DNA of 55,492 nucleotides, from NCBI GenBank assembly GCA_903875465.1, contig CAIQWB010000024.1, forward strand, positions 1-55,492. Direction: 5' to 3'. This document shows, in pieces, positions 32,861-50,708 of the stretch. Source of the stretch: an uncultured Verrucomicrobia subdivision 3 bacterium. GTDB taxonomy: Bacteria > Verrucomicrobiota > Verrucomicrobiia > Limisphaerales > UBA11358. The notes beneath the pieces were generated by a model that had not been told where the DNA came from, ran no database searches, and saw nothing but the letters and a program-made list of their open reading frames with translations. The translations under genes and the position numbers were made by a program. Positions within the stretch are counted from its first letter, which is position 1. Each line of letters starts with the position of its first letter.

Positions 32861-32861
32861 T

Positions 32862-33233
32862 ATGCCAAAAAGTCATGACAGTCAGTCGGGAGTGATCCGG
32901 TTTGCGCCGGCGCTCAAGGCGGCGCTCATGTGCGTGGTGATCACGGGCTCGGCCGTGGGGTATGTGTGGCAGAAGGGTGAAATTGACCAATTGGGCCAGG
33001 ACAAGCACCGCTGTGAGGTGCTGTTAACGCAATTAAAACGCAATAACCAACGGCTGGTGGATCAAATCGCCATATTACATTCGCCCCTTAGCCTGGACCA
33101 GCGCGTGAAAGAATTGAATTTGGGCTTGGGCCCCTTACAACCCGGCCAGGTGGTGCGGTTGGCGGAGCCGACCGGTGCGTGGGCAGGGGAAAGAGCCGGA
33201 AACCGGCAGTTGGCCGAACGATCTGATGATTAA
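32862..33233 (+). CDS. ftsL: FtsL-like cell division protein
   Basis: This small bitopic membrane protein (123 aa) is identified by position and shape: a short cytoplasmic N-terminus, one membrane helix (about 18-35, ALKAALMCVVITGSAVGYV), and a periplasmic coiled coil (about 38-75, with heptad-like spacing in QLGQDKHRCEVLLTQLKR). FtsL bridges FtsQ/FtsB and the FtsWI synthase. Primary sequence is poorly conserved in this family, so the call depends on its place between rsmH and ftsI. No separate FtsB is seen in the window. Confidence 0.8.
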   Translation: MPKSHDSQSGVIRFAPALKAALMCVVITGSAVGYVWQKGEIDQLGQDKHRCEVLLTQLKRNNQRLVDQIAILHSPLSLDQRVKELNLGLGPLQPGQVVRLAEPTGAWAGERAGNRQLAERSDD

Positions 33234-33260
33234 TTGACCGAAAACAACCATTAACATTTT

Positions 33261-33318
33261 TGGCCGCCGCTCGTGATACCCTTGGTTTGAGGAACCGAAT
33301 GTCACGAGCGGCCGGCCA
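33261..33318 (+). other. Long hairpin between ftsL and ftsI
   Basis: TGGCC-GCCGCTCGTGA (33261-33276) and its complement (33302-33318) form a 16-bp stem with a single bulged base; the loop contains a second small hairpin (GGTT with AACC). It ends 12 bp before the ftsI start and is followed by GCTTTTAAT. It may act as a partial terminator or an mRNA processing or stability element inside the dcw operon. Confidence 0.55.
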
Positions 33319-33330
33319 GCTTTTAATACT

Positions 33331-35223: not shown

Positions 35224-35232
35224 TGACTTGTT

Positions 35233-36618: not shown

Positions 36619-36625
36619 GCGCACG

Positions 36626-37810
36626 ATGATTTATTATCTGAGCCAATTGATTTTGGATGAGAATCACGGAACGCCGTGGGAGGCACGCCTGTCTTTCTTG
36701 CGGCTGTTTCACTACATCACCGTACGCAGTGCGGGTGCGGCGGTGACCGCTTTGCTGCTGAGTTGGTGGCTGGGTCCCAAAATCATTCACGGTCTGAAGC
36801 AGTTGAAATTTGGCCAGGATTATGCCGATAAAGCCGAGGCCGCTGGCGGCTTAGAGGCCCGGATTTTAAGTAAAAAAGGCACACCCACCATGGGCGGAGT
36901 CCTGATTATTTCCGTGCTGGCGTTTTCCACCATGCTGTGGACCCAATGGAACGCGCAAGTGGAATTGACCATGCTCTCGGTTTTGGTGCTGGCCGGGCTG
37001 GGTTTTTATGATGATTATGCCAAGATCATCCAGCAAAGCGGCGGCGGCACCCCACCCCGGGTCAAACTGATGGTGCAAACCGCGCTGGGATTGTTTGTCG
37101 GCATTTATCTTTGGTTGTTGCCCGCACAGAGTGAATTACGCTTATTGGGTGGCAAGTCATTGATGCAGAGTAACTTGGTCACAGATTTAATGGTGCCATT
37201 CCACAAGTTTCCCTACGAAATTGGGGCGGTGCTGGGGGTTATCATCGTCTTGCTGGCGGTGGTGGGTAGTTCCAATGCGGTGAATCTGACTGATGGTCTG
37301 GATGGTCTGGCCATTGGTTGCACGTTAATTGTGACATTCGTTTTTCTCGTGTTCACCTACCTGGCGGGTAACGTGAAAGCGGCGGCCTACTTGGAAATCC
37401 CTTATGTCAACGGTGCTGGGGAGTTGACGGTATTTTGCGCGGCGCTCATTGGCGCGGGCCTGGGATTTCTCTGGTTTAACTGCCATCCGGCGCAAGTGTT
37501 CATGGGGGACACTGGCTCGCTGGCACTGGGGGGTGCCTTTGGATTGATTGCGGTGCTCATCCACCAACCGCTGGTGCTGGTCATTGCCGGCGGGGTGTTT
37601 GTGCTGGAGGCGTCTTCAGTAATGTTACAAACCAGCTGGTTCCGTTTTACCCGCCTGCGCTATGGCACCGGGCGCCGCATTTTCAAGATGGCTCCGCTGC
37701 ACCATCATTTTGAGAAACTGGGCTGGTACGAATCCCAGGTGGTCATGCGCTTTTACATTTTGTGTTTTTTATTCGCGGTCCTGGCCCTGGCCACGCTGAA
37801 ACTGAGATGA
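36626..37810 (+). CDS. mraY: Phospho-MurNAc-pentapeptide translocase MraY
   Basis: MraY transfers phospho-MurNAc-pentapeptide to undecaprenyl phosphate, forming lipid I at the inner membrane. The protein (394 aa) is polytopic with about ten helices and shows the family motifs GTPTMGGVLI, DDYAKI, NLTDGLDGLA, MGDTGSLALGG and MAPLHHHFEKLGW. The length is slightly above the usual 360 because of an extended N-terminus and the loop after helix 4, as seen in several Gram-negative groups. It begins 7 bp after murF. Confidence 0.96.
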   Translation: MIYYLSQLILDENHGTPWEARLSFLRLFHYITVRSAGAAVTALLLSWWLGPKIIHGLKQLKFGQDYADKAEAAGGLEARILSKKGTPTMGGVLIISVLAFSTMLWTQWNAQVELTMLSVLVLAGLGFYDDYAKIIQQSGGGTPPRVKLMVQTALGLFVGIYLWLLPAQSELRLLGGKSLMQSNLVTDLMVPFHKFPYEIGAVLGVIIVLLAVVGSSNAVNLTDGLDGLAIGCTLIVTFVFLVFTYLAGNVKAAAYLEIPYVNGAGELTVFCAALIGAGLGFLWFNCHPAQVFMGDTGSLALGGAFGLIAVLIHQPLVLVIAGGVFVLEASSVMLQTSWFRFTRLRYGTGRRIFKMAPLHHHFEKLGWYESQVVMRFYILCFLFAVLALATLKLR

Positions 37811-37811
37811 C

Positions 37812-38117
37812 ATGAAACCACGATTCTCGCATATTGCCACGGGAAAAACGCGCTTTGCTCCTTGCATGCCGCCGCGGGGGATGATAAAACCACTGACGGT
37901 ACGAAAGTACCAGGTAATGAGTGGTTCGAAAGTTTCAATTTCACCTGCCGTTTTTACACCGGGAAAACCTCAGGCACGCTCCCACCATTTCCATTTAACC
38001 ATGACTCCGGTTGAACCAATTATTTTTAAGGCAGTGAAATTTACTGAGGGAAAATTTCGCGGCAACAAATCAAACCAACCTCAAAGAAAAGACGCCACCA
38101 GCGCCACCATTAAATGA
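37812..38117 (+). CDS. Doubtful small ORF between mraY and the LysM gene
   Basis: This open frame of 101 codons starts one base after the mraY stop and overlaps the LysM gene start by 4 bp (ATGA), which is the geometry of a real operon member. Against it, the product is basic with no recognisable domain, and the DNA is more A/T-rich than its neighbours. It contains a GGTAC-GAAA-GTACC hairpin (37898-37911). The 303-bp stretch occupies the place where murD usually sits but has no Mur ligase motif. It may simply be a leader region for the downstream genes. Confidence 0.3.
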   Translation: MKPRFSHIATGKTRFAPCMPPRGMIKPLTVRKYQVMSGSKVSISPAVFTPGKPQARSHHFHLTMTPVEPIIFKAVKFTEGKFRGNKSNQPQRKDATSATIK

Positions 38118-38995
38118 ACAACCCCAATCCATTCGTACCCCAGGGCTCCTTGCAGGAGCAGCAAAACCAACGTCGCAAACACGTCAAAATTGGCGTGTTG
38201 TGCGCCCTGACCGTGAGTGTTGCCAGTCTCATGGTCATGCTTATCCAGGGCTGCAAACAAAAGCCCAATCCTGATGAGAGCGCGACGGCTTCCGTGGATA
38301 CCAACAGCATTCCGGTGCCTGACACGAATGTGCCCCCGGTAGATGTTTCCAACCAACCGCCCGTGACGCCTTCCAGCAACTTGGTGAGCGTGCCCTCGCC
38401 CACCACCTCCACGTTGACTCCCGGGTCCAACGTGCCCCCGGTGACTTCTCCCCTACCGCCGGTGGCCGCTCCCTTGCCGACCACTCAGCCGGAGGCACCT
38501 GCTGGCGGTGAATACGTCGTCGCGAAAGGCGACAGTCTGGCGAAGATTGCCAAGAAAAATGGCGTCACGCTCAAAGCCTTGACTGCGGCGAACCCGGGCC
38601 TCAACCCCAAGAAGTTAAAAATTGGCCAGAAGCTGGTGTTGCCCGCCGGTGGCAAATCAACCGTTGATGGTGCCGCGGCCCCGGCCGCCGCCGCCACCGC
38701 CGAGCCTGAAAGTGAAAGCTATACCGTCAAGTCCGGTGATACCCTGACCAAGATTGCGAAGGCTCATCACGTGAAACTGAAAGAGTTGCAGGCCGCCAAC
38801 GGTCTGACCACCACCAAGATCAAGGTCGGTGAAAAATTGAAGATCCCGGCCAAGGGTGAGGCCGCCCCGGTAACTCCGGGGACCGTCACGCCCCCCGCAG
38901 TGGATATAACCCCCGCGCCCGCCACGCCCGCGCCCGCGCTACCCTCCGTCACCGCGCCGGCTCCCGCAACGCCCGCGGTTCCGGGTTCGCATTAA
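38114..38995 (+). CDS. Membrane-anchored protein with two LysM domains
   Basis: This protein (293 aa) has a short cytoplasmic segment, one membrane helix (about 23-43) ending near a Cys (VMLIQGCK), a Pro/Thr/Val-rich linker (about 55-135), and two LysM domains: YVVAKGDSLAKIAKKNGV to KIGQKLVLP (about 136-180), and YTVKSGDTLTKIAKAHHV to KVGEKLKIP (about 199-243). A Pro/Ala-rich tail follows. LysM binds N-acetylglucosamine in peptidoglycan, so it likely sits in the periplasm on the cell wall. There is no amidase or peptidase domain. Its place between mraY and ftsW suggests a wall-binding role in division. Confidence 0.88.
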   Translation: MNNPNPFVPQGSLQEQQNQRRKHVKIGVLCALTVSVASLMVMLIQGCKQKPNPDESATASVDTNSIPVPDTNVPPVDVSNQPPVTPSSNLVSVPSPTTSTLTPGSNVPPVTSPLPPVAAPLPTTQPEAPAGGEYVVAKGDSLAKIAKKNGVTLKALTAANPGLNPKKLKIGQKLVLPAGGKSTVDGAAAPAAAATAEPESESYTVKSGDTLTKIAKAHHVKLKELQAANGLTTTKIKVGEKLKIPAKGEAAPVTPGTVTPPAVDITPAPATPAPALPSVTAPAPATPAVPGSH

Positions 38996-39047
38996 GTTAC
39001 CCCGGCTGGACGGCTTCAACCCCGTCTTGCTGGGTTCGATTACTGAC

Positions 39048-40181
39048 ATGAAAGTTGCCGTCACCACCCTCGCCACCACCGTGGCCGCCCTTTTGGGGCT
39101 GGGCTTGGTCATGCTGTACAGTTCCAGCATGACCAAGGTCGGCACGCATGATCTCATCATGCAACTCGTCTGGGTGACGCTGGGTTTTTGTGTTTGTGTG
39201 GCGGCGACTTGGACTGATTACCAGGAATTTAAGAAGATACACTGGGTCCTCTACGGTGGTTCGGTGTTGTTGCTGGTGCTGGTTTTTGTGCCTGGCGTCG
39301 GTCATTCCAGCCATGCGGCAAAGCGCTGGCTAGGCCATGGTGGTTTCACGATTCAACCCTCGGAATTTGCCAAAATTGCGCTCATTATCGTCCTGGCTTG
39401 GTACGGCGACCGCTATCAGAGGCAAATGTCCCAGTGGCTGCGGGGTGTATTTATCCCGGTGGGAATCATCCTGCCAATTTTGGGTTTGATTTTTCTAGAA
39501 CCAGACCGCGGCCAGACGATTTTGCTCTCGGCGGTGTGTGCGGGACTGTTGCTGGTAGCCGGGGTGCGCTGGCGCTGTTTGTTTATCCCTGCGCTGGTGG
39601 GCGGTGCTGGCTTGGCCGTGTCGCTATCCCGGGATCCGATGCGCATGGGGCGGATTATGGCCTGGCTGCATCCAGATGCGCATGCCAATGGCTTTGCCTT
39701 GCAAGCCCAGCAAGCGATGCTGGGGCTTGGCGACGGAGGCTGGACTGGCTTGGGCTTGGGCAATGGTTTGCGTAAGTTTGGCTACCTGCCGGAAATTCAC
39801 ACAGACTTTATTTTAGCCAATATCGGGGAGGAACTCGGGCTGGTGGCCACGCTTTTCGTTGTGGTTGGCTTTGTCATCATTGCCTTGTGTGGAGTTTTTA
39901 TTTCTTTGCATGCCCGGGAGACCTTTGGCGGATTGCTCGCCCTGGGCATCACGTTGCTGATCTGCCTGCAAGCCGGCATAAATATTGGAGTGGTGACCGG
40001 GGCTCTACCGAACAAGGGGTTGCCCCTGCCATTTATTAGTTATGGCGGTTCCAATCTGCTGGCTATGTTTACCTGCTTGGGGATTTTATTCAGTGTCGCC
40101 CGCCAGGCAAATACGGTGGTGAAAATTACCCCGGCAGAATCCGTTCCGGGCGATAATCCTTTCGCGGCGAAAGCCACATGA
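39048..40181 (+). CDS. ftsW: Peptidoglycan glycosyltransferase FtsW (SEDS family)
   Basis: FtsW polymerises septal glycan strands with FtsI. The protein (377 aa) is a polytopic SEDS protein with MLYSSSM in the first helix, a conserved IQPSEFAKIALII, a long periplasmic loop with GLGLGNGLRKFGYLPE and HTDFILANIGEELG, and the signature GLPLPFISYGGSNL. The start at ATG 39048 (MKVAVTT) is preferred; the frame opens at a TTG at 39027. Its last four bases overlap the murG start (ATGA), so translation is coupled. Confidence 0.95.
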   Translation: MKVAVTTLATTVAALLGLGLVMLYSSSMTKVGTHDLIMQLVWVTLGFCVCVAATWTDYQEFKKIHWVLYGGSVLLLVLVFVPGVGHSSHAAKRWLGHGGFTIQPSEFAKIALIIVLAWYGDRYQRQMSQWLRGVFIPVGIILPILGLIFLEPDRGQTILLSAVCAGLLLVAGVRWRCLFIPALVGGAGLAVSLSRDPMRMGRIMAWLHPDAHANGFALQAQQAMLGLGDGGWTGLGLGNGLRKFGYLPEIHTDFILANIGEELGLVATLFVVVGFVIIALCGVFISLHARETFGGLLALGITLLICLQAGINIGVVTGALPNKGLPLPFISYGGSNLLAMFTCLGILFSVARQANTVVKITPAESVPGDNPFAAKAT

Positions 40182-41341
40182 ACCCTCCGGCCACCTCACA
40201 GCCCTACGTTGCCATCGCTTGCGGCGGCACGGGCGGTCATCTCTTCCCTGGTCTGGCGGTCGCCCGCCAATTACTCCAGCGGGGCTGCGCGGTGGGCGTG
40301 CTGATCTCCCCCAAGGAAGTGGACCAACAGGCCGTTCAATCTGCCCGCGAGTTGGAAATTATCACCCTGCCGGCCGTGGCCTTGCAGAACCGCAACTACT
40401 TGGCTTTTGCCCGCACCTTTGCCCAGTCGTGGGGTGCGGCCCGGCGTCTGTTCAAGGCTCGGCGGCCGCAGGCGGTGCTCGCCATGGGTGGATTTACGAG
40501 CGCGCCACCCATACTGGCTGCCCGCAAATCGGGTGCCAGAACATTTTTACACGAGTCCAACACCATCCCTGGCCGGGCCAACCGGTTGCTGGCGCGGTTT
40601 GTGGATACGGCCTTTGTGGGCTTTTCCGAGGCGGCTGATCGCTTGTCCACCCGCCATTCGGTCGTGTCCGGCACGCCGGTGAGGGCCGAGTTTCAATGGC
40701 GCGACCCGGCGGGCTGCCGGGCCCGGTTCGGTCTGGATCCTCAGCGGCCCACGATTTTGGTGATGGGCGGGAGTCAGGGAGCTAGTGGGATCAATCGGTT
40801 GATTTTATCCATCCTGCCACTCTTGGGAAATCGTAACTGGCAATGGATCCACCTCACTGGGGTCACAGATTTTGCTTCGGTCCGTAGCGCGTATGCAGGT
40901 TATGGGTTTAAAGCTGTGGTGCAACCATTCATGGCTGAGATGGAATGGGCGATGGGTGCGGCCACCGCAGCGGTCAGCCGTTCCGGGGCCTCTTCGCTGG
41001 CGGAAATCGCCGCTTTGCGCCTGCCCTCCTTGCTCGTGCCCTATCCCACGGCCGCAGATAATCATCAATTGACAAATGCACTGGCCTTTGTCCGTTCCGG
41101 CGCGGCGCAAATGCTGGAGCAGAAAACGGCCACTCCGGCGGCCTGCCTGGCCCGGTTGGAGGAATTGGTGGCCAATGAACCACTGCGGGCCGGTCTGCGT
41201 TCGGCCCTGGTGCAGTGGCACGCGCCCCGTGCGGCAGAACAAATTGCGGACAGTATCATGCTAGCGATTGACTGCCCGGCTCATCCGGCACCTGTGGTCT
41301 CGCTGGGTGTGGCGGCCGCTGGTTGCAAGGCGGGAGCCTGA
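40178..41341 (+). CDS. murG: UDP-GlcNAc:lipid I N-acetylglucosaminyltransferase MurG
   Basis: MurG converts lipid I to lipid II on the inner face of the membrane. The protein (387 aa, slightly longer than usual) has two Rossmann-like domains with the N-terminal G-loop ACGGTGGHLFPGLAVA, FLHESNTIPGRANRLL, the second G-loop VMGGSQGASGINRL, and the donor-binding VSRSGASSLAEIAAL followed by PYPTAADNHQ. It overlaps ftsW by 4 bp and is followed by murB; murC, often found here, is missing. Confidence 0.95.
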   Translation: MNPPATSQPYVAIACGGTGGHLFPGLAVARQLLQRGCAVGVLISPKEVDQQAVQSARELEIITLPAVALQNRNYLAFARTFAQSWGAARRLFKARRPQAVLAMGGFTSAPPILAARKSGARTFLHESNTIPGRANRLLARFVDTAFVGFSEAADRLSTRHSVVSGTPVRAEFQWRDPAGCRARFGLDPQRPTILVMGGSQGASGINRLILSILPLLGNRNWQWIHLTGVTDFASVRSAYAGYGFKAVVQPFMAEMEWAMGAATAAVSRSGASSLAEIAALRLPSLLVPYPTAADNHQLTNALAFVRSGAAQMLEQKTATPAACLARLEELVANEPLRAGLRSALVQWHAPRAAEQIADSIMLAIDCPAHPAPVVSLGVAAAGCKAGA

Positions 41342-41346
41342 CGAAT

Positions 41347-42288
41347 ATGGATGCGATTTTGGAACAACCCATGACCACCTTGTCCGCTTTGGCTGCGGAG
41401 CTGGCGGCCCGTGTCTCGCCGGCAACGGTGATCCGGCAGTCCGAGTCCCTCGCCCGGCACACGACGCTGCGGGTGGGTGGGCCGGCGGATGTTTATGTGA
41501 CCCCTGCTAACGAGGCAGACCTCGCAGCGATCGTTCAGCTTTGCGGCCAGCGGCGGCAACCTTTTTTCCTGCTGGGCCGCGGTTCCAACCTGCTCGTGCG
41601 GGATGGCGGTGTGCGGGGCGTGGTGATTTGTTTGGAAGCCCCCGTTTTTAGTGGCATCACCGTGACCGGTGATCAGCTCCACTGCGGTGCGGGTACCCGG
41701 TTGAAACAGGTGGCCGTCACGGCCAAACGACAGGGGCTTTCCGGATTGGAATTTCTCGAGGGAATTCCCGGTAGTGTGGGCGGGGCGCTGCGCATGAATG
41801 CTGGCGCAATGGGCAAATGGACCTTTGATGCCGTGGTGTCCGTGCGTTACATGGATTATGCGGGCGGAATTCACGAGCTGCCGGCGGCTTCGGTGCCGGT
41901 GGAGTACCGTGCCTGTCCGCTGTTGCGGAATCATATTGCCCTCGGCGCGGTTTTTCAGGGCCAGCCAAAGGCGCCTGCCGAAATTGAGCAATGTATGCGG
42001 GGTTATAGCGAAAAACGCTGGGCCTCCCAGCCGGCTGCGCCTAGTGCGGGTTGTATTTTTAAAAATCCCGCCGCCATTCCGGCGGGTAAACTAGTGGATG
42101 AACTTGGGTTGAAGGGAACCCGGGTCGGCGGCGCGGTGGTGTCCGCCGAACACGGCAATTTTATTATCAACGACGGCGGTGCCACAGCGGCGGACGTCCT
42201 CGCGTTGATCACGGTGTTGCAAAACCGGGTGCTCGCGGAACGTGGCATACAACTGCACCCGGAAGTCGAAATTATTGGAGAAAACTGA
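41347..42288 (+). CDS. murB: UDP-N-acetylenolpyruvoylglucosamine reductase MurB
   Basis: MurB is the FAD-dependent enzyme that makes UDP-MurNAc. The protein (313 aa) shows HTTLRVGGPADVYV, the FAD site GRGSNLLVRDGGVRG, GIPGSVGGALRMNAGAMG, the catalytic Ser region SAGCIFKNP, and EHGNFIINDGGATAADV. It lacks the extra Tyr loop of E. coli MurB, which makes it a type II enzyme. ATG 41347 is chosen because it follows the murG stop by 5 bp; the frame extends back into murG. Its stop shares one base with the ddl start. Confidence 0.95.
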   Translation: MDAILEQPMTTLSALAAELAARVSPATVIRQSESLARHTTLRVGGPADVYVTPANEADLAAIVQLCGQRRQPFFLLGRGSNLLVRDGGVRGVVICLEAPVFSGITVTGDQLHCGAGTRLKQVAVTAKRQGLSGLEFLEGIPGSVGGALRMNAGAMGKWTFDAVVSVRYMDYAGGIHELPAASVPVEYRACPLLRNHIALGAVFQGQPKAPAEIEQCMRGYSEKRWASQPAAPSAGCIFKNPAAIPAGKLVDELGLKGTRVGGAVVSAEHGNFIINDGGATAADVLALITVLQNRVLAERGIQLHPEVEIIGEN

Positions 42289-43238
42289 TGTCCCAGCCCC
42301 TCAATCTTGTGGTCATGCTCGGCGGTCCCAGCGCGGAACGCGAAGTCTCCTTGCGCTCGGGCGCGGCGGTTGCCGCGGCTTTACGTTCCCGGGGGCATCA
42401 GGTTACGGAACTGGATCCACTTTCGCCGGCCTGGACCTTGCCACCGGGAACCGACGCTGTCTTTCTCGCGCTCCATGGCACTTATGGCGAGGATGGCACG
42501 GTGCAACGGCAATTGGATGCCCTGGCCGTCCCTTACACGGGCTGCGATGCCGAGTCCAGCCGGGTGGCCTTTGACAAGGTACTAACCAAGCAAGCTTGCG
42601 TGTCGGCTGGCGTTCCCACGGCAAAATTTATCGTGGTTAATTCCGCGAACACGCCCTGGCCCGCTGGCTGGCAGCCGCCCGTCGTGCTTAAACCTGTGCG
42701 GCAGGGTTCCAGCGTGGGCTTGCAATTTGTCGATGACGTGGCGCAATGGCCCGCCGCCCTGGCCGCCGCCATTCAATTCGACTCCGAGGTGCTGGTTGAG
42801 GAAAAAATTGTTGGGCGGGAAACCACCGTCGGCATTCTGGCGGGCACGGCTTTGCCGGTCGTGGAGGTACGGCCCAAACAAGGGGTGCTTGATTACCAGA
42901 ATAAATATACTCCCGGGGCCACCGAATATTTTGTGCCCGCTGATTTTGACGGCCTGACCACCCAAAAAATCCAAGCCGCCGCGCTCGGGGCCTTCCAGGC
43001 TATTGGCGGCCGGGATTATGCGCGTGTGGATGTCATGGTTCGGCCCAATGGCGAACCCGTGGTGCTGGAAGTGAACACGCTGCCCGGCATGACCGCAACC
43101 AGCTTGCTGCCCAAGGCCGCTGCGGTGGTGGGCTTGGATTACGCACGCCTGTGTGAACGTATGGTGGAACTGGCCCGGCAGCGCACGGGCAAGCCTGCCG
43201 TGACTGGCCCGGAGAAAGGAAATCATGTGGCCCTTTAG
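42288..43238 (+). CDS. ddl: D-alanine--D-alanine ligase
   Basis: Ddl makes the D-Ala-D-Ala dipeptide used by MurF. The protein (316 aa) is an ATP-grasp enzyme with LGGPSAEREVSLRSG at the N-terminus, ALHGTYGEDGTVQ, the central VLKPVRQGSSVGL, and the Mg-binding C-terminal EVNTLPGMTATSLLPK. Its size fits the DdlB type found in dcw clusters. The end overlaps the ftsQ start by 14 bp. Confidence 0.95.
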   Translation: MSQPLNLVVMLGGPSAEREVSLRSGAAVAAALRSRGHQVTELDPLSPAWTLPPGTDAVFLALHGTYGEDGTVQRQLDALAVPYTGCDAESSRVAFDKVLTKQACVSAGVPTAKFIVVNSANTPWPAGWQPPVVLKPVRQGSSVGLQFVDDVAQWPAALAAAIQFDSEVLVEEKIVGRETTVGILAGTALPVVEVRPKQGVLDYQNKYTPGATEYFVPADFDGLTTQKIQAAALGAFQAIGGRDYARVDVMVRPNGEPVVLEVNTLPGMTATSLLPKAAAVVGLDYARLCERMVELARQRTGKPAVTGPEKGNHVAL

Positions 43239-44187
43239 TCGCACCCGGGGAAACCGCCGGCTCAGTCCCGGCCAAAAGTTGGATGTGAAGCTCCGCTCCG
43301 ACCAGTTACGAAGTGCCCGCAACCGGTATGCCACCGTGGTCATCCTGGCTGGCCTAGGCACCGTTCTGGGACTTTATGTACTCTGGCGCACTGGGGAATG
43401 GAGCTTGGACAAATTTGTGTACGACAACCCCTCGTTCGCCATCGAACATGTGGATGTCCAGACGGATGGCAATCTTGCGCCCGAGCAAGTACGCCGCTGG
43501 TCTGGGGTTAATCCCGGGGCGAACTTAATCAGTCTTGACCTGGCCGGTATCAAACGGAATTTGGAACTGGTTTCCACCATTGATTCCGTCTCCATTGAAA
43601 GGATTCTGCCGCGCACCCTGAAAATTCGCGTGACCGAACGCCATCCAGTGGCGGAGGTGAACCTGCTCCGCACCCTCCCCAACGGCGAGGTCACGGTCAC
43701 GGTTTTTCAAATAGACTTAAAAGGTTATGTGATGGAGTCGATTGATTCGCATGTGTCCCCCGTGGCCGTGGCCTCCGCCAGCGGTGAACTCCCAAATCTG
43801 GCGGGCTTGCTGCCCGGGGAATTTCAACCGGGCCACCCACTGACCAACCTGCAGGCCCTGGCCGCCTTGCGCTTGATTAACGATTTTAAACATTCATCCA
43901 TGGCCGCCCTAGTCGAGTTACAATCGGTGGACGTGGCCGCGCCGGGCGTTCTGGTGGCTACCACCGGGTCGGGTACCGAGGTCACCTTTGCCCTCGATCA
44001 CGCGGACCAGCAATTGCGCCGCTGGCGGGGAATCCATGATTGGGGCCATACCGTGGGCAAAGATATCGCCACGGTGGACCTGGCGGTGGGCAACAATGTT
44101 CCCGTGAAATGGACCGTGGCTGGCGGCATACCCGTTTTGGATCCCAAATCAGTAAAACCCCTGCATACCCGGAGGAAAAATGTTTGA
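43225..44187 (+). CDS. ftsQ: Cell division protein FtsQ/DivIB
   Basis: FtsQ is a bitopic scaffold of the divisome. The protein (320 aa) has a basic cytoplasmic tail, one membrane helix (about 36-54, YATVVILAGLGTVLGLYVL), a POTRA domain (about 70-140, with FAIEHVDVQTDGNLAP and LPRTLKIRVTERHPVA), and a beta domain to the C-terminus. Sequence similarity in this family is low, but topology, POTRA motif and position between ddl and ftsA agree. It overlaps both neighbours (14 bp with ddl, 8 bp with ftsA). Confidence 0.9.
   Translation: MWPFSRTRGNRRLSPGQKLDVKLRSDQLRSARNRYATVVILAGLGTVLGLYVLWRTGEWSLDKFVYDNPSFAIEHVDVQTDGNLAPEQVRRWSGVNPGANLISLDLAGIKRNLELVSTIDSVSIERILPRTLKIRVTERHPVAEVNLLRTLPNGEVTVTVFQIDLKGYVMESIDSHVSPVAVASASGELPNLAGLLPGEFQPGHPLTNLQALAALRLINDFKHSSMAALVELQSVDVAAPGVLVATTGSGTEVTFALDHADQQLRRWRGIHDWGHTVGKDIATVDLAVGNNVPVKWTVAGGIPVLDPKSVKPLHTRRKNV
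44171..44176 (+). promoter_or_regulatory. Strong ribosome binding site of ftsA
   Basis: GGAGGA lies 3 bp before the ftsA ATG at 44180, inside the end of ftsQ. It is the clearest Shine-Dalgarno in the cluster and fixes the ftsA start within the 8-bp overlap. Confidence 0.75.
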
Positions 44188-45400
44188 CGAAGCAAACTTG
44201 ATCGTTGGTTTGGAGATTGGCACCTCCAAAATCTGTGCGGTCATTGGTGAAATCAATACCGAGGGTGCCCTAAACATTATCGCCTTGGGCCAGGCTCCCG
44301 CCCGTGGGGTACGCAAAGGGGAGATTGTAGACGCTCCGCTGGCGGAGGAATGTGTCCGCCACGCCATTGTGGAGGCCGAGCAAATGGCCAACGTGGAAAT
44401 TCGCGATGTCTTTCTGGGGGTGACTGGAGGGCATGTGCGTGGTTTCACCAACCGTGGTGTCCATCGAGTCCTGTCCGCCGACCGGAATATTACAGAGGAC
44501 GATGTTTCGGATGTCGTCAAAAACGCCCGGGCGATCAACCTGCCTGCTGAAAATTCCATTATTCATGACGTGCGCCAGCATTTCTTGCTGGACGGCCAAC
44601 CGGGCATCGTCAATCCCGCAGGCTTTGTGGGCAAGCTTTTGGAAGTGGATGTGCATGTGGTGCATGGGGTGACCAACCGCATGCAAAATTCGGTCCGGCT
44701 GGTGCGGAACCTGAATCTCGAGGTCAATGAAATTGTGTTCAATGGCCTGGCCTCCGCGCTGGCTTTGCTGAGCAGCGAGCAAAAAGAGCTGGGTGCGCTG
44801 GTCATTGACCTGGGCGGGGGGACAACGGACTACGTGGTATATGTCAACGGTGTGGTTCGCCACACGGGGGTCTTCGCCGTGGGAGGCGACCACATTTCCA
44901 ATGACTTGGGGCATGGTTTGAAAGTTCCGCTTTCCCGGGCGGAAAAACTCAAGGTGGAATATGGCACCGCCGTGCCGGACGAGGCCGCCAGGGGCCAATC
45001 CATCACGATTACCAACGAAATGAATTTGCCCATCAAGACCCTCAACCTGGAGCATTTACAGCGCATTATGTCGCTGCGTCTGGAGGAATTGTTCCAGATT
45101 ATTCGGTTGGATTTGGAGGAGGCAGAGTTGCTGCCTTACATTCAGGGCGGAGTGTTTATTTGCGGCGGCGGCGCGCGTATCCCACACATCGCACAATTGG
45201 CGGAAACCATTTTTCAAGCCCCTGTGGCCCTTGGCCACACGGGTTCGCTGAGTGGACTCAAGTCCGCCCTGGACCAGCCGGAATTTCTCACGGCCATCGG
45301 CCTGGTCAAATACGGTTCCATGCGCAGCCCCAAACCGGCCCCGGCCGGCTTTTTGCCCAATCTCAAGACCATGTTTAACCGGTTTCTACCGCAACGTTAA
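44180..45400 (+). CDS. ftsA: Cell division protein FtsA
   Basis: FtsA is the actin-like ATPase that tethers FtsZ to the membrane. The protein (406 aa) has the first phosphate loop LIVGLEIGTSKICAVIGE, the 1C domain with GVTGGHVRGF, the second phosphate loop VIDLGGGTTDYVVY, and the adenosine site FICGGGARIP. The C-terminal FLPNLKTMFNRFLPQR can form the amphipathic membrane-targeting helix. A canonical FtsA beside an unusual FtsZ suggests the FtsA-FtsZ contact is kept. It is followed by the ftsZ-like gene after 12 bp. Confidence 0.95.
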   Translation: MFDEANLIVGLEIGTSKICAVIGEINTEGALNIIALGQAPARGVRKGEIVDAPLAEECVRHAIVEAEQMANVEIRDVFLGVTGGHVRGFTNRGVHRVLSADRNITEDDVSDVVKNARAINLPAENSIIHDVRQHFLLDGQPGIVNPAGFVGKLLEVDVHVVHGVTNRMQNSVRLVRNLNLEVNEIVFNGLASALALLSSEQKELGALVIDLGGGTTDYVVYVNGVVRHTGVFAVGGDHISNDLGHGLKVPLSRAEKLKVEYGTAVPDEAARGQSITITNEMNLPIKTLNLEHLQRIMSLRLEELFQIIRLDLEEAELLPYIQGGVFICGGGARIPHIAQLAETIFQAPVALGHTGSLSGLKSALDQPEFLTAIGLVKYGSMRSPKPAPAGFLPNLKTMFNRFLPQR

Positions 45401-45412
45401 CCCTGTTTTGCC

Positions 45413-46711
45413 ATGACCCCCAACGCTGAAACGCCAACGCCCGCCTGGGAAACCACCGGTTCACCCGTCATCAAGATCATCGGCATCGGTACCGCCGGCG
45501 TGGCTTTGCTAGAAACCCTGGCCACTGCGGAATTTGCGGGGGCCCACCGGGTGGCTGTGAGCACCGACCAGTCTTCGCTTAATGTCTCGACAACTTCTGC
45601 CAAACTATTGTTGGAAGCCAAGGGTTTGCGCGGTTTGGGCACTGGAGGTGACGCTGAGCGGGGGTATGCGCTGGCCGAGGAGAATGTGGCGGGTTTGAAA
45701 TCCGCCTGTACCGGGGCGCAGGTGGTTTTACTTTTGGCGGGCCTGGGGGGCGGGGCGGGCAGCGGCATTACCCCGGTGGTCGCCCGGGTGGCCCGGGAAT
45801 CCGGCGCGCTGGTACTGGCCTTTGTCACCCTGCCGTTTGATTGTGAGGGTAATCGCCGTTCGGCGCAGGCCAAGGCCAGCCTGGCCCAGATTAAGGCCTT
45901 TGCCGATGGTGTGATTTGCCTGCCCAATCAAAAGGCCTATAAACTTATTGATGAGCACACCAGTGTGGTGGACACCTTCCGGATCACCGGCGGCCTGTTG
46001 CTGGAAGCCATTCGCGGTATCTGGCAATTGATGACCCGCCCGGGTCTGATTCAAATTCATCTGGCCGACCTCTGCGCGCTCGTGCGTGATAAAAATGCCG
46101 AGGGGGTCTTTGCGTTTGTGGAGGCCAGTGGCCCCGCCCGTTCCCGCGAGGTCATCGATAAATTGCTGGCCCATCCGCTGCTGGATGAGGGCAAGGCGCT
46201 CACCGAATCGGATGCTGTCATGGTCAGCCTCATGGCCGGCTCCGACCTTACCATGGCCGAGGTCAACCGCGTCATGGAACAGATTACTCGGCAATGCGAA
46301 CGCGCCCAGGTCATCATGGGTGCCATGGTGGATGACGCTTGGAAAACCCGTCTCTCCGTCACGCTCATTGCCGCCAAACACAGTGCGCCCCCTGTACCGG
46401 AACCCGTCGAGACCGCCTTCCACCGTCCGGCTCGGATTGGCGGCCGGCCCACGCCCACTGTGACGCCCAGCCCTTCCGCCAGTCCCGTTGCCAACCCCGG
46501 TCCCAGCCCGCTACAAATGCAGCAACGTGAACAACTGGTTAAACAACATGCCCCGGGGGGACGCCGTAAAGCAGATGGCAAAATGAAACAGGAAATGCTG
46601 CAATTGGGGACCATCACCAAAGGCCGCTTTGACAAATGCGAGCCGACCATCCACAAAGGTGAGGATTTGGATGTCCCCACCTACTTCCGCCGGGGCATGC
46701 CCCTCAACTAA
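45413..46711 (+). CDS. ftsZ: Divergent FtsZ-like tubulin homologue
   Basis: This protein (432 aa) occupies the ftsZ position and keeps the tubulin fold order: a Gly-rich N-terminal loop IIGIGTAGVALLE (about 22-34), STDQSSL in place of NTDAQAL, the G-box, and a tail with the conserved FtsA/ZipA-binding peptide DLDVPTYFRR (about 419-427). Key motifs are altered. The G-box GGGTGTG is GGGAGSG (112-118). In the T7 loop, NxDxxD becomes Q214-x-H216-x-x-D219, losing the residue equivalent to E. coli Asp209 but keeping Asp212. Polymerisation is still likely; GTP turnover may be slow or changed. A Pro/Ser-rich linker (about 325-385) joins the tail. It converges on the kinase gene with 3 bp between stops. 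Confidence 0.88.
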   Translation: MTPNAETPTPAWETTGSPVIKIIGIGTAGVALLETLATAEFAGAHRVAVSTDQSSLNVSTTSAKLLLEAKGLRGLGTGGDAERGYALAEENVAGLKSACTGAQVVLLLAGLGGGAGSGITPVVARVARESGALVLAFVTLPFDCEGNRRSAQAKASLAQIKAFADGVICLPNQKAYKLIDEHTSVVDTFRITGGLLLEAIRGIWQLMTRPGLIQIHLADLCALVRDKNAEGVFAFVEASGPARSREVIDKLLAHPLLDEGKALTESDAVMVSLMAGSDLTMAEVNRVMEQITRQCERAQVIMGAMVDDAWKTRLSVTLIAAKHSAPPVPEPVETAFHRPARIGGRPTPTVTPSPSASPVANPGPSPLQMQQREQLVKQHAPGGRRKADGKMKQEMLQLGTITKGRFDKCEPTIHKGEDLDVPTYFRRGMPLN

Positions 46712-46714
46712 CTT

Positions 46715-49700
46715 TTAAAATCCAGCCTCCATCCGGGGCGTGAAATCCTCCCGCTGAAACGCTTGGTTAATTGAGATGTGTTCGTGCGTTTCGGTACTTC
46801 CGTTGTGGGCGTACCGCCGGATCAAGCCATCCGATTTGCCTACCCAGAGGGTTGCCTGGCTCACCCTATTGCTGCACGCCAGCACGTAGCAATCCGTTTC
46901 GCCTACGCGTTCATCCGCCCGCCGGAACAACTGGCCAGTCGTGCCCAAGCTGAAGGGGGTGAACACATTGCCCCAAGATAAATTGAAGTAGGCCGTCGGC
47001 ACCGCAGTTTCATTAATGGTATTGGCTAAATTCCCCGTCATCTCCCCGCCTTTGATCCGGGCTCCGGGCACCTGCTGCCAGTAATAATCCAACCCGTCCG
47101 ACCAATAGCGATTGGTGTAGACATAGGGATGGGGCGCCGTCACGATCTCCACGAGGTAACCAGTTCGCGCGCCCATTTTTTCAGTGAAGGTATTCGTCCA
47201 GGTCTCGCTCTGGAAGGCATGCACGGTCCAGCCTGTATCTTGGTACGTCGTTAGGGTGGCATATGCCTGCCGGGCCAGGGCCACAATGTTGGTGGCTGCC
47301 AAGTCGGTTGGTTTGGAGTTGGAGTTGGAGTTGGTTGAGGGGCCGGTCAGGGTAGCCGGTTTGAAGTCGATGATCGCCAGATTTGTAAAGGTGCTGATCT
47401 TCCAAGTACTGCGCGCCTGGCTGCGCCCTTGCAATTGTAGAAAACCAAATACTTCCTCGGCCATTGCCTTGCCGCTGGCATCCTTTCCCAAAGTCCGCCG
47501 CACGGCAAAGAGCGGCGAATCCACCCCGTGGGGTTCATTCAGTTCCATGCGATGGATCAGCTGCTCGGCCGTCGCCGCCGCCGTTTCATCGGGTAGCACA
47601 AATCCCACGGTGAAATTAGTTCGGCCGGCCAAATCATAACTGCCGGCGATCACCTTGCCGGTACTATGGTGGGGCTCGGTGGTGACCAGGCAGTCCACAT
47701 TGCTCACCGCTGCCGGCCATTGGTAGGGCAGTTCGATTAGTGGGCCCGACAAAACCGGCGTGAGCACCGCCGAGCCGGGCAGGGGATCACAGGTCATTCG
47801 CACCCAAAGGACTTGGCCATAGTGCCGGACCTCCCGCACACAGGCGGTGCCCCCAGCGCTCGCGTCCTTGAGCGAGGCCTCTGCCAGCCAGGGCTGCCAC
47901 ACCCCTTCCGGACAGTAGCTTTGCCACCAGATGAATCCCACAGCCGCCAGCCACCACACTCCCAATAACATTAAACCCGTGCTGCCCCCCACAAAGGTGT
48001 GGAGGGATTCCGGTCGCAAGCCCCGTGCCTTGGCCCATGCGGACGCGCACATCAACCGGGCTTGATATTTCCACCACAGTGGATAAAATGCCAGACCCGT
48101 TAGTAACACCGACGTGGCAATAATCCAATTCAGTGGCACCGGGATGGGAAATAACATCAGGCACGCGAACGGTAAAAAGAAGGTGGCCGAGTTCCAGATG
48201 GCGTAAAAGGTGCCAAGGGGTAGCATGCGCGCTCTTTCTTGCGCCGTCATATGCCGGTAGACTTCCCGAGTCTGGCGGGCGGTGAAGAGAGCCAAAATGC
48301 CGCCGCGAGCGAAGGTTAGGTGCGCGGGTTGACGCCCCCGCTGATCAACCCCGGGTGACGGTCCATCCGACTCCCGCTGCGCCCGCCGGTTTAACCACCA
48401 AGGCAGGATCAAAGCCAGCCCTAACGCCAAGGCCATGAAGCCAAAGTTAATGGATTGAAAATGATTCAGCAGCGCGGTTGCCCAGTTTGAGAAAAAGTGT
48501 GCCGCCTCAGGATCCTTTATAAAAACATCCAGCCGGTGGGTTCCCGCGGTCACCGCTCCCTTGGCGTAATAACCCAGAGCCGCACCTCCCAGAGCGATCG
48601 GGGCCACGGCCGCGCCACCCAAGGCTCCCACCAGTCCGCCGGCCACTCCGCCCAGTGCCAAAAACCCGAGAGCCATCCCGCCGTAAGAAAAAATCCCCAG
48701 CGAGAAACCACCCAGCGTGATGCCACCCATGGCCAGGCCGCCAACAGCCACGACTCCCTGGGCAATCCCGCCAATCGCAACGACCCCCCGGGCAATGCGC
48801 ACCCGGCCAGTCGCCGGATCCAAACCTGTCGCGATATGCACCCATGGCAAGCCAAAGAGCGTCGACTGGGTTTGGTAATTAAACCCGGCGTACAGGCGCG
48901 CGCTGGCCGGTGGTAATTTCGCTGCCGAACCCTGGGCGATCGCCTCCATCTGCGTTTTGAACACACTGGCTTGCTGATACCGGCGTTCCGGCAGCTTTTC
49001 CAAGGCGCGAAGGACTACTTCATCCAGTCGCACATCAATGCGCACCTTGTGCGACGGTGGTTGCAGCGGTTGTTCGGGGAATTCCCCGGTGAGCATTTGA
49101 TAAAGCACCACCCCCAATGCATAAATGTCCGCCCGATGATCCACCTCGCCCGGATGCTCCACCTGTTCCGGCGACATGTATTTCGGCGTCCCCATGATCT
49201 TGCCGGCTTCCGTCAGGGCAGGGGACCCGATCGTCGAACCCGCCAGCGAGCCGGCCTCCCCCGCCGCCCCGATTAATTTCGCCAGCCCAAAATCCGCCAC
49301 CTTTACCCGCCCGCGGCGGTCCATGAGCAGGTTTTCTGGCTTGATGTCCCGGTGCACAATCCCCTGATCATGGGCGAATTGCAGGGCATCGCAAATCTGG
49401 GGTACAATCGCCAGCGCCTCGCGGGCCGATATGCGTTCCCGCTGGAGCAGTTCCCGCAGATTCATGCCATCCACAAACTCCATCAGGAAGAAATAGAGGC
49501 CGTCCGCCCGCCCAAAATCGTAAATGGTGACAATCCCGGGATGATTCAGCCGGGCCAGCGCCTTCGCTTCCCGCGCAAATCGTTCCGCAAATGCCCCATC
49601 CTGGCCAATGTCCGGCGGCAGAATTTTCAACGCCACCAGCCGGTCCAGTTCGCGCTGGCGGGCCTTGTAAACCGCCCCCATCCCACCCCGGCCGATCAGT

Positions 49701-49900
49701 TCCAAAATCTCCAATTGCGGAAATTTGGCCGCCAATTCCGCCACGGTCGGGGGTGTGAACGCCCCGGTGCTTTCACCGGGAATGTCCGTCTGTGTGGCCT
49801 CCAGCAGCGCCGCCGCACAACGCGGGCAAATGCCCCCGGTGGTACCGACTGGGGGTGTTGTTCCGCAGCGTGGACATTTTTGAGATGGGATGTCGCTCAT
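46715..49900 (-). CDS. Ser/Thr protein kinase with zinc ribbon, Gly-pentad array and membrane/C-terminal sensor region
   Basis: This PknB-type kinase (1061 aa) starts with a zinc ribbon (Cys9, Cys12, Cys25, Cys28). The kinase domain follows, with GRGGMG (70-75), Lys92, HRDIKPEN (183-190), DFG (204-206) and GTPKYMSPEQ. Residues 372-453 form an array with Gly about every fifth position (for example VVAIGGIAQGVVAVGGLAMG). About four membrane helices follow (near 484-502, 563-586, 590-610 and 640-660), then a long C-terminal region whose last 200 residues look like a LolA-type periplasmic fold. It lies 43 bp downstream of an ECF sigma factor on the same strand, a pairing known in Planctomycetes and Verrucomicrobia. 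It probably controls that sigma factor. Confidence 0.9.
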   Translation of the reverse strand: MSDIPSQKCPRCGTTPPVGTTGGICPRCAAALLEATQTDIPGESTGAFTPPTVAELAAKFPQLEILELIGRGGMGAVYKARQRELDRLVALKILPPDIGQDGAFAERFAREAKALARLNHPGIVTIYDFGRADGLYFFLMEFVDGMNLRELLQRERISAREALAIVPQICDALQFAHDQGIVHRDIKPENLLMDRRGRVKVADFGLAKLIGAAGEAGSLAGSTIGSPALTEAGKIMGTPKYMSPEQVEHPGEVDHRADIYALGVVLYQMLTGEFPEQPLQPPSHKVRIDVRLDEVVLRALEKLPERRYQQASVFKTQMEAIAQGSAAKLPPASARLYAGFNYQTQSTLFGLPWVHIATGLDPATGRVRIARGVVAIGGIAQGVVAVGGLAMGGITLGGFSLGIFSYGGMALGFLALGGVAGGLVGALGGAAVAPIALGGAALGYYAKGAVTAGTHRLDVFIKDPEAAHFFSNWATALLNHFQSINFGFMALALGLALILPWWLNRRAQRESDGPSPGVDQRGRQPAHLTFARGGILALFTARQTREVYRHMTAQERARMLPLGTFYAIWNSATFFLPFACLMLFPIPVPLNWIIATSVLLTGLAFYPLWWKYQARLMCASAWAKARGLRPESLHTFVGGSTGLMLLGVWWLAAVGFIWWQSYCPEGVWQPWLAEASLKDASAGGTACVREVRHYGQVLWVRMTCDPLPGSAVLTPVLSGPLIELPYQWPAAVSNVDCLVTTEPHHSTGKVIAGSYDLAGRTNFTVGFVLPDETAAATAEQLIHRMELNEPHGVDSPLFAVRRTLGKDASGKAMAEEVFGFLQLQGRSQARSTWKISTFTNLAIIDFKPATLTGPSTNSNSNSKPTDLAATNIVALARQAYATLTTYQDTGWTVHAFQSETWTNTFTEKMGARTGYLVEIVTAPHPYVYTNRYWSDGLDYYWQQVPGARIKGGEMTGNLANTINETAVPTAYFNLSWGNVFTPFSLGTTGQLFRRADERVGETDCYVLACSNRVSQATLWVGKSDGLIRRYAHNGSTETHEHISINQAFQREDFTPRMEAGF
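48542..48787 (-). repeat. Coding repeat: glycine-pentad array in the kinase
   Basis: About eight decapeptide units of the type xxAxGGxAxG (residues 372-453) appear in the kinase, so Gly falls every five residues while A, V, I, L and F fill the rest. This is not a normal membrane helix: periodic Gly suggests a beta-solenoid or a tightly packed helical bundle. It sits between the kinase domain and the first predicted membrane helix. Confidence 0.75.
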
Positions 49901-49943: not shown

Positions 49944-50708
49944 TTACGCAATGCTCCCCAAAACGGCCAGCACCTCCCGGATTTCCGAGGCCACGGCGCC
50001 GGGTTCGGCCACGGTATCCGCGATCACTGCACGAAACACTTCCCGAAACCGTTTGCGCAGCCGGTGAATGGCCACCCGCGCCGCGCCCTCGCTGGTTTGG
50101 CCAGCCATGGCAATCTCGGGATAAGGAATCTGGCCTCTTTCGGTGGTCAGGTAAGATTTGAGCAGTGCGAATTCGGCGGCCCGGCCCCCCTGCGCATATT
50201 CTTGCTGAAGCCGGGACAGGGCCTCGTCGAGCAGGGCCAGGGCCCAGCGCCGATCATAACTTGTGTCGACGTCATGGGTGCCCGGCGCATCCTGTTGAAA
50301 GCGTTGTTCCGCCAGTTCCGTGTCCAGGGGCAGCAAGACCTGGCCACCGCCCCGTTTCTGACTCCGCAACCGCTCCCCTTCATTTAGCAAAAAACGTTTC
50401 ATCGCCATGCGCAGGAACGTGCGAAACCGGCCTTTTTCCGGCGTGACCACTCTTAAATAATTCTTGGCCAGTAATGCGGCGAAAAAACTCTGCGTTAAAT
50501 CCTGGGCATCATGGGGTGAATATCCTAATCCGCGCACGAGGGCATAAAGTGGATACCAGTACGTGCCGCATAAGGTCTCCAGCGCCCGTCCCGCTGCCGG
50601 CCCGCCTGGTTCCTGTGCGGCCAGGATCACTGACCAACGGGTGGTGACAAATAAAGAGCCACCCGGGGGGGCCGCCTGCGTTGCCGATTCATCGCTGGTC
50701 ATCGCCAT
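49944..50708 (-). CDS. ECF-type RNA polymerase sigma factor
   Basis: This sigma factor (254 aa) has region 2 (LCGTYWYPLYALVRGLGYSPHDAQDLTQ, given here in parts: YWYPLYALVRG then DAQDLTQSFFAAL, about 50-80) and region 4 with MAGQTSEGAARVAIHRLRKR (about 206-225). The insert between the two is longer than in classical ECF factors, as in groups encoded beside Ser/Thr kinases. It is the first gene of a two-gene unit with the kinase. A TATAAT lies 36 bp upstream on the minus strand (50744-50749) but no matching -35 is clear, so self-regulation is possible. Target promoters are unknown. Confidence 0.88.
   Translation of the reverse strand: MAMTSDESATQAAPPGGSLFVTTRWSVILAAQEPGGPAAGRALETLCGTYWYPLYALVRGLGYSPHDAQDLTQSFFAALLAKNYLRVVTPEKGRFRTFLRMAMKRFLLNEGERLRSQKRGGGQVLLPLDTELAEQRFQQDAPGTHDVDTSYDRRWALALLDEALSRLQQEYAQGGRAAEFALLKSYLTTERGQIPYPEIAMAGQTSEGAARVAIHRLRKRFREVFRAVIADTVAEPGAVASEIREVLAVLGSIA

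Follow-up and report, generated by a model that had tools for sequence, protein, structure and literature searches.

The window analysed here is a stretch of 55,492 nucleotides (positions 1 to 55,492 of the forward strand of contig CAIQWB010000024.1, assembly GCA_903875465.1) from an uncultured Verrucomicrobia subdivision 3 bacterium. Its minus strand carries a gene for a 1061-residue protein that contains an array with glycine at nearly every fifth position, and the gene for an extracytoplasmic function (ECF) sigma factor lies just upstream (Table 1). The protein is a Hanks-type Ser/Thr kinase: it matches PF00069, has an HRDIKPEN catalytic loop and has a PknB-like fold, its AlphaFold2 (AF2) model aligning with a PknB kinase structure at Z 23.3 and a root-mean-square deviation (rmsd) of 2.1 over 204 residues. 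An earlier inspection of the DNA, here called the sequence-only reading, had singled out the array as a possible hydrophobic beta-solenoid or membrane-embedded sensor. We describe the array, the domain to which it appears to belong and the relatives of that domain in other bacteria.

Table 1. Features of the array-bearing kinase gene and its upstream neighbour, in window coordinates
Feature	Position	Strand	Basis
Ser/Thr protein kinase gene, array-bearing, 1061 aa	46715..49900	(-)	ORF list; Pkinase PF00069 E 2.3e-49, residues 64-277
Zinc-ribbon-like N-terminus, residues 7-29, cysteine pairs	49814..49882	(-)	PF06827 E 0.0019, under curated cut-off; pairs visible in sequence
Kinase domain, residues 64-277, HRDIKPEN loop	49070..49711	(-)	Pfam; AF2 model compared with PknB structure
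Conserved cap, residues 338-371, contains TLFGLPWVHI	48788..48889	(-)	Invariant columns among 33 members
Gly-pentad array, residues 372-453	48542..48787	(-)	Gly counts; predicted beta-solenoid
D/E/K/R/H/N/Q-free stretch, residues 382-446, proposed membrane-spanning part	48563..48757	(-)	65 aa, mean hydropathy 1.48
First transmembrane helix past array, residues 486-503, then basic NRRAQR	48392..48445	(-)	Uncharged run, hydropathy, AF2 helix
Further hydrophobic region, residues 568-604, probably one or two helices	48089..48199	(-)	Hydropathy windows
Further hydrophobic helix, residues 636-659	47924..47995	(-)	Hydropathy windows
C-terminal region, residues 660-1061	46715..47923	(-)	No Pfam match
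ECF sigma factor gene, 43 bases upstream of kinase, same strand	49944..50708	(-)	PF07638 E 7.3e-07

The glycine-pentad array and its cap

Residues 372-453 of the kinase open reading frame (ORF) map exactly to the array interval in Table 1. Glycine occupies residues 372, 377 and so on to 422 (11 consecutive places), then 428, 438, 443, 448 and 453, with alanine at 433. Allowing for a one-residue slip near 423-427, glycine fills 16 of the 17 expected five-residue places, so that the periodicity proposed from the letters alone is confirmed. Residues 366-460 hold 26 glycines among 95 residues; in this segment the 15 glycine pairs at a lag of five were matched by 1 of 100,000 shuffles, and the 18 pairs at a lag of ten by none of 100,000. 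Counting glycines in a single phase gave a weaker result (matched by 911 of 100,000 shuffles), because the register slip spoils any one phase. GG occurs in about every second pentad, and the fuller unit is therefore a decapeptide, for which the arrays give the consensus G-[LIV]-[LIV]-[AS]-[LIF]-G-G-[LVI]-[AS]-[LVA].

The sequence-only reading described the array as otherwise hydrophobic. This is correct for residues 382-446, a run without D, E, K, R, H, N or Q that is the longest of its kind in the kinase protein and is bounded by Q381 and K447. Tandem repeats in the DNA under the array are short (2.3 copies of 15 bases and 2.0 copies of 30 bases), which speaks against recent DNA duplication of the whole array. 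Given these short repeats and the conservation of the array in other genomes, recent DNA duplication or an assembly artefact was ruled out as its origin.

Judged from aligned sequences, the array is the second half of a cap-plus-array domain spanning residues about 338-453. A conserved cap precedes the array in an alignment of seven kinase-type domains, and columns L19, F20, G21, P23 and H26 of the cap are invariant across 33 members. Neither the cap (residues about 338-371) nor the register slip had been noticed in the sequence-only reading.

Relatives, output modules and neighbouring genes

Relatives were found through the cap motif [TA]LFG[LW]P[LW][LIV]H[VI] in one scan of GTDB species genomes. 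The scan returned 155 stretches, 147 of which were confirmed, and the best 80 of these 147 were kept by tblastn to one apolar array. Record titles of the 80 loci name Verrucomicrobiota, Planctomycetota, Clostridia, Bacilli and one metagenome-assembled genome (MAG) labelled Betaproteobacteria. The last (L051, JACQGO010000068.1) encodes a zinc ribbon plus array and reflects either transfer or misbinning. Domain matches were present in 18 of 40 genomes (the window's own and 39 relatives, its own being among the 18), profile matches in 24 of 194 genomes of the phylum, its own included, and in 5 of 148 genomes from the class to which one Lachnoclostridium member belongs, itself among the five. Viral contigs gave 40 cap-motif matches and no confirmed domain, while plasmids gave a single record, covering only query residues 2-35 (low-complexity filter on). 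No convincing second copy was found in the window's own genome (E 0.0068 with one internal stop; profile E 0.202 and 0.948). Loci L003-L007 of the related-genome search were omitted as being on the same contigs as later loci, phylum loci L128, L129, L131-L133 and L135, for which a wrong reading frame had been selected, were omitted from later counts, and the sigma and kinase rows counted below include related sequences and are not independent.

The same array was located in several phyla, behind different cytoplasmic modules. Sorted by N-terminus, using patterns and reading, the 80 loci comprise 52 XRE-type DNA-binding proteins, 20 kinases and one kinase fragment, four HAAS proteins, two zinc ribbon proteins and one coiled-coil protein. 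Pfam, run on nine of the 80, detected HTH_3 in 3/3 XRE, HAAS in 3/3 and Pkinase in 1/1 members; the single zinc ribbon member stayed under the cut-offs, and for the coiled-coil member nothing matched clearly. A further architecture, from the related-genome and phylum searches, consists of an ECF sigma factor, membrane helices, and then cap and array. Sigma signatures were present in 20 of 21 loci of this type from related genomes, the remaining one being a contig-end fragment, and in 10 of 10 phylum-search loci preselected by reading. Sigma regions 2 and 4 were detected in L010, the only sigma-array locus run on Pfam. Short arrays without a signalling domain stand alone at L114, L116, L117, L120 and L122; L123, L124 and L126 look by eye like further short array proteins and are outside this set of five. 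Several stand-alone arrays carry a variant cap, with L116 and L117 reading LFGLPLYDIAIGPDP.

With the window's sigma factor as query, tblastn (E 1e-3) found a homologue at 13 of the 21 kinase-array loci: 12 have it upstream of the kinase, one (L044) has it elsewhere, and the other eight have none. At L090 it lies some 580 bases ahead of the kinase open frame. All four HAAS loci (L086, L094, L095, L098) have a PadR gene directly upstream that overlaps the start of the HAAS-array frame, forming a compact PadR/HAAS-array pair. Through these fusions and neighbours, most of the architectures observed connect the domain with transcription control, either in cis or via an adjacent gene. The suggestion that the array is a sensor joining the kinase to outer domains is not supported, as little protein follows the array in XRE-type and stand-alone relatives. 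Its wider role seems to be that of a module placed on several kinds of transcription control.

The C-terminal half of the L035 ORF (1731 aa) seems, by eye, to hold a second partial array end and the following helix, and this partial copy resembles an internal duplication with most of the array lost. The kinase-array gene of L048 reads as a fragment with its kinase part out of frame, either decayed or affected by a sequencing error. In the window, the last ~400 residues of the kinase (46715-47926) match no Pfam family even at E 5. On the plus strand, a run of cell-wall and division genes (31928-46711) converges on the kinase gene, the two ends lying 3 bases apart; reading of the translations identifies MraW, FtsI, MurF, MraY, a LysM protein, FtsW, MurG, MurB, Ddl, FtsQ, FtsA and an FtsZ-like protein.

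Predicted fold and comparison with known families

AF2 was run on residues 55-520 with 20 homologues and on residues 330-470 with 32 homologues (33 rows). In the first run, blocks of residues 375-454 had predicted local distance difference test (pLDDT) values of 92-95 and were all strand, followed by a helix at residues 481-511; the model as a whole was weaker, with a mean pLDDT of 74.0, a predicted template modelling score (pTM) of 0.44 and five models ranging over 53.9-74.0. The second run reached a mean pLDDT of 93.6 and pTM 0.77 (five models 92.4-93.6), with array blocks at 96-98, strands at model positions 40-103, 106-113 and 116-123, and no helix within the array. The array is therefore modelled as a continuous predicted beta-solenoid and not as plain helical membrane segments. 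Periodicity is consistent with this prediction, as 72 arrays have high power at periods of 5 and 2.5 residues and power of 0.27-0.44 at 3.6. The hydrophobic beta-solenoid suggested in the sequence-only reading, and the distinction it drew from ordinary membrane helices, are both supported at the level of predicted structure.

Foldseek found no match to the array-domain model in the PDB at E 0.001 (best E 1.1). A second look compared 77 chains with the array model, and 7 of them reached Z 2. The top chain was the YadA head beta-roll 1p9h (rmsd 6.6 A, 117 aligned residues, model 16-136 to chain 32-196), with a Z of 10.9 that, by the tool's own warning for repeats, is possibly no more than a common arrangement. 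It was followed by the BoaA head (Z 8.3, rmsd 5.7, 101 aligned) and EibD (Z 7.0, rmsd 6.0, 93 aligned), and two left-handed hexapeptide-helix entries shown in the same comparison scored Z 3.1-3.2. With the whole kinase model, the listed matches were filled by kinases and were uninformative on the array. The viral structure library gave no match at E 0.001 (best 0.017, query TM-score 0.17). Searching PDB sequences, a 7-row profile had a best E of 0.032 and a 33-row profile had one match at E 1, with E 0.0064; this match, 7qlr residues 434-495, is a phage tail fibre segment with ten-residue-like repeats. We infer ten residues per coil from the sequence period, one DSSP break per ten residues near the model end, steps in array length and the YadA range lengths.

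No Pfam or NCBIfam family matches the window's cap-plus-array domain at E 0.1. Across the 33 members at the same threshold, NCBIfam gave none and Pfam only GLTT (3/33, best E 0.00028) and PT-TG (1/33, E 0.02). Our search of open papers returned no description of a transmembrane or hydrophobic beta-solenoid domain like the array, and in the accessible part of a paper on solenoid design the word "membrane" is absent outside the references (PMC12775518). We conclude that bacterial regulators carry a widespread repeat domain that has no name.

The array had also been said to differ from Asp/Asn-type pentapeptide repeats, and it does. PF00805 was absent from the window protein and 6 members at E 1, and from the 33 members at E 0.1. 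The published consensus is [STAV][DN][LF][STR][G] (PMC8145042). The array shares with this right-handed quadrilateral beta-helix a five-residue period, A/S two places before the key position and a predicted solenoid. However, it has Gly (88-90%, two after A/S) where PF00805 has L/F, mostly hydrophobic residues or Ala where PF00805 has D/N, a charge-free middle, and a decapeptide alternation. A PF00805 coil is right-handed, with 20 residues and four sides. In the array AF2 places strands throughout, and indirect signs lean towards 10 residues per coil. A classical pentapeptide repeat was thus rejected on consensus mismatch and lack of a Pfam match.

YadA and BoaA heads resemble the array as its best second-look matches and in their A-[IV]-G turns. 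YadA-like heads fold as a left-handed parallel beta-roll; Foldseek was not significant. The repeat of YadA-like heads is about fourteen residues, whereas that of the array is ten; the rmsd is 5.7-6.6 A, and the heads are secreted trimeric adhesins while the array is found on cytoplasmic-side regulators. The Pfam head-repeat model was absent from the 33 members at E 0.1.

Toastrack is a beta-helix that is likewise joined to HAAS, PadR and envelope-stress signalling. Its three models are DUF4097, DUF2807 and DUF2154 (PMC11237479), none of which was detected in the window protein or 6 members at E 1, in further loci at E 0.01, or in the 33 members at E 0.1. Toastrack is described in the available portion of that paper as intracellular and without transmembrane regions, whereas the middle of the array is charge-free. 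According to the same portion, HAAS also occurs in Firmicutes (AOH56696.1) as a fusion with 'pentapeptide repeat domains' (PMC11237479); judged by this description, these may be the cap-plus-array domain.

The window locus, with its kinase gene adjoining an ECF sigma gene, also resembles ECF systems controlled by Ser/Thr protein kinases (EcfP/PknT and EcfK/PknS, ECF43 and other kinase-linked groups). In such systems, phosphorylation by the adjacent kinase is reported to activate EcfP, and the same is supported for EcfK (PMC8999054). The window kinase differs in carrying the array as an extra domain. ECF43 sigma factors lack the DAED motif in region 2.2 (PMC8999054). The window sigma factor, by eye in translation, reads DAQD where DAED is expected, retaining 3 of 4 letters, and its membership of ECF43 is therefore not plain. 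Sigma-array proteins recall ECF48, ECF52, ECF53 and IutY in fusing a sigma factor to membrane parts. However, the extensions of ECF48/52/53 are a zinc-finger domain plus one or two helices, IutY has a fused anti-sigma factor, and the part of the source consulted mentions no Gly-pentad array (PMC8999054).

Membrane crossing and competing explanations

Over pentads 2-13 of the 52 XRE arrays, a span of 60 consecutive positions, none of 3,120 residues is D, E, K, R, H, N or Q, and the same holds for all 865 residues of pentads 4-12 of the kinase arrays; polar residues lie on either side in both groups. Uninterrupted stretches of 60 aa or more lacking these residues occur in 52/52 XRE members (62-83 residues) and 12/20 kinase members, kinase L090 being cut by the contig. 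Repeat number often drifts. Here 41 of 48 XRE and 19 of 19 kinase members measured (60/67) have a distance of 70-71 residues between the first Gly and an aromatic landmark, the others being at 60 (three members), 65 (one), 80 (one) and 83 (two). XRE arrays L052, L056, L067 and L102 have no landmark, and kinase L090 was omitted because of its contig end. The one-residue pentad slip recurs in these lengths, the distance being 71, not 70, in 31/48 XRE and 18/19 kinase arrays, as if a bulge were needed. At a beta spacing of 4.8 A, seven coils would measure about 34 A if a coil has 10 residues, which is near the thickness of a bilayer.

Flanking charges give a direction. In the window kinase, the first helix after the array (residues 486-503; AF2 helix at model 427-457) has no K or R before it and three after it. 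Of the 49 kinase, sigma and HAAS members that could be scored, 39 have more K+R behind than ahead of the first post-array helix, 8 have equal numbers and 2 have fewer (scoring left out 2/24 kinase, 7/31 sigma, 1/4 HAAS and 47/52 XRE rows). Removing six rows with the helix placed in or before the array (L044, L086, L012, L020, L118, L119) leaves, by hand count, 37 of 43 with more, 5 equal and 1 with fewer. By the positive-inside rule, this helix would run from outside to inside, placing the C-end of the array outside. Around the uncharged run itself, 79 of the 111 rows that could be scored (out of 117) carry more K+R on the N-side, 20 carry the same number on both sides and 12 carry more on the C-side. 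An alternative script, taking the most hydrophobic later helix, found more K+R after it in 15/15 sigma and 3/3 HAAS members. Each of these signs is indirect; together, the charge-free stretch, fixed length and flanking charges favour a single crossing with the N-end in and the C-end out, and lend indirect support to the membrane embedding raised in the sequence-only reading.

Several points weigh against a membrane-crossing solenoid of this kind. We know of no transmembrane beta-solenoid. Array lengths lend the ten-residue coil support from 3 arrays that are shorter and 1 that is longer by ten, others differing by 5-6 or 12-13 residues, and side-chain volumes correlate weakly at lag 10 (+0.128, standard error 0.055) and at lag 20 by +0.008. 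The warning attached to the YadA comparison belongs here as well. Ranking loci by likeness to one apolar array may have favoured apolar members. With the alternative script, 11/21 kinases had more K+R after the helix, 2 were equal and 8 were opposite. Among the stand-alone arrays, N-side charge exceeds C-side charge in 1/5. Later helices could be scored in 5/52 XRE members (1 with more K+R after, 4 equal), and the XRE topology therefore rests on the flanking charge. Finally, repeats are a documented case in which AF2 predicts beta-solenoids too readily (PMC11795689); that bias concerns perfect repeats of random sequence, whereas the window array is imperfect, natural and was modelled with an alignment.

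On balance, we regard the chances as even that this is an unnamed signalling domain with a beta-solenoid, predicted by AF2, that would cross the cytoplasmic membrane. In the proposed arrangement, residues about 338-453 would form one domain, beginning with a cytoplasmic cap (LFGLPLVHI motif, basic residues) at the inner membrane surface and continuing into a beta-solenoid of about seven ten-residue coils, with a long middle free of charged and strongly polar residues. Taking the place of a transmembrane helix, the solenoid would make a single crossing of the membrane with its N-end inside and its C-end outside. It would tether an output module in the cytoplasm and may relay the state of the membrane or envelope, changes in which would shift the solenoid or its pairing and act, via the cap, on the kinase or DNA-binding part. 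For the window protein the output would be the Ser/Thr kinase, with the adjacent ECF sigma factor as its likely phosphorylation target; in other members the domain is joined directly to an ECF sigma factor, an XRE DNA-binding domain, or HAAS beside PadR. The combined proposition, that a solenoid of about seven ten-residue coils genuinely spans the cytoplasmic membrane and is also a sensor module shared by kinases, sigma factors, XRE repressor-like proteins and HAAS proteins across Verrucomicrobiota, Planctomycetota, Clostridia and Bacilli, is more tentative and falls a little short of an even chance.

The main alternative in terms of function, which we consider unlikely but the best placed of the rivals, is a passive membrane anchor without sensing, with regulation coming from other parts or from proteolytic release. 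Membrane-tethered ECF sigma factors freed by proteolysis are known (IutY) and expected for ECF48/52/53 (PMC8999054), and the array is chemically bland. However, a plain helix would be a cheaper anchor, and the conserved cap motif beside the output module, together with reuse on different outputs, fits signal transfer better.

A beta-solenoid that does not cross, lying in or on the inner leaflet or forming a docking surface below the membrane, is improbable in our estimation. It would suit the fusions to cytoplasmic modules and HAAS, and a comparable role as a sub-membrane platform in HAAS-PadR systems has been proposed for the Toastrack beta-helix (PMC11237479). With 20 residues per coil, 70 residues would span only about 17 A, and the five stand-alone arrays have no N-in/C-out charge bias. 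By the positive-inside rule, the basic residues behind the post-array helix in 39/49 members nevertheless put the C-end of the array outside, the 60 apolar positions of the XRE arrays leave no water-facing side, and a docking platform leaves the fixed array length unexplained.

Ordinary alpha-helical membrane segments (one or three), with the AF2 solenoid as a repeat artefact, have a still smaller chance. Several 19-residue windows in residues 369-442 exceed a hydropathy of 1.6, the mean over residues 382-446 is 1.48 (Table 1), and the flanking charges would also be compatible with an odd number of helices. On the other side, the arrays have almost no 3.6-residue power and strong power at 5 and 2.5, regularly stepped glycine at the density counted above is poor for helices, the 62-83 residue XRE runs lack the polar loops that three helices would need, and AF2 set helices normally right after the array. 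Helical segments were accordingly set aside as the leading explanation for their lack of 3.6-residue power and loops, and retained as a rival given the tendency of AF2 to over-predict solenoids. Least probable, by a narrow step, is a water-soluble solenoid burying its apolar faces in a homo-oligomer in the style of the YadA head trimer: the YadA, BoaA and EibD matches and the likeness of A-[IV]-G to the SVAIG of YadA-like heads (PMC2942831) speak for it, but 60 positions in 52 XRE arrays offer no polar residue for an outer face, Foldseek gave no significant match, and fixed length and flanking charges would go unexplained.

If the membrane-crossing solenoid is real, it would be a third and categorically new mode of membrane crossing, besides helices and, in outer membranes, barrels. 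It would be an exception to the textbook rule that proteins of the cytoplasmic membrane cross it as helices, and one lying in public genomes, some of them from gut bacteria. Even without crossing, one unnamed domain joins several kinds of transcription control, and the signal to which it responds would explain many orphan regulators.

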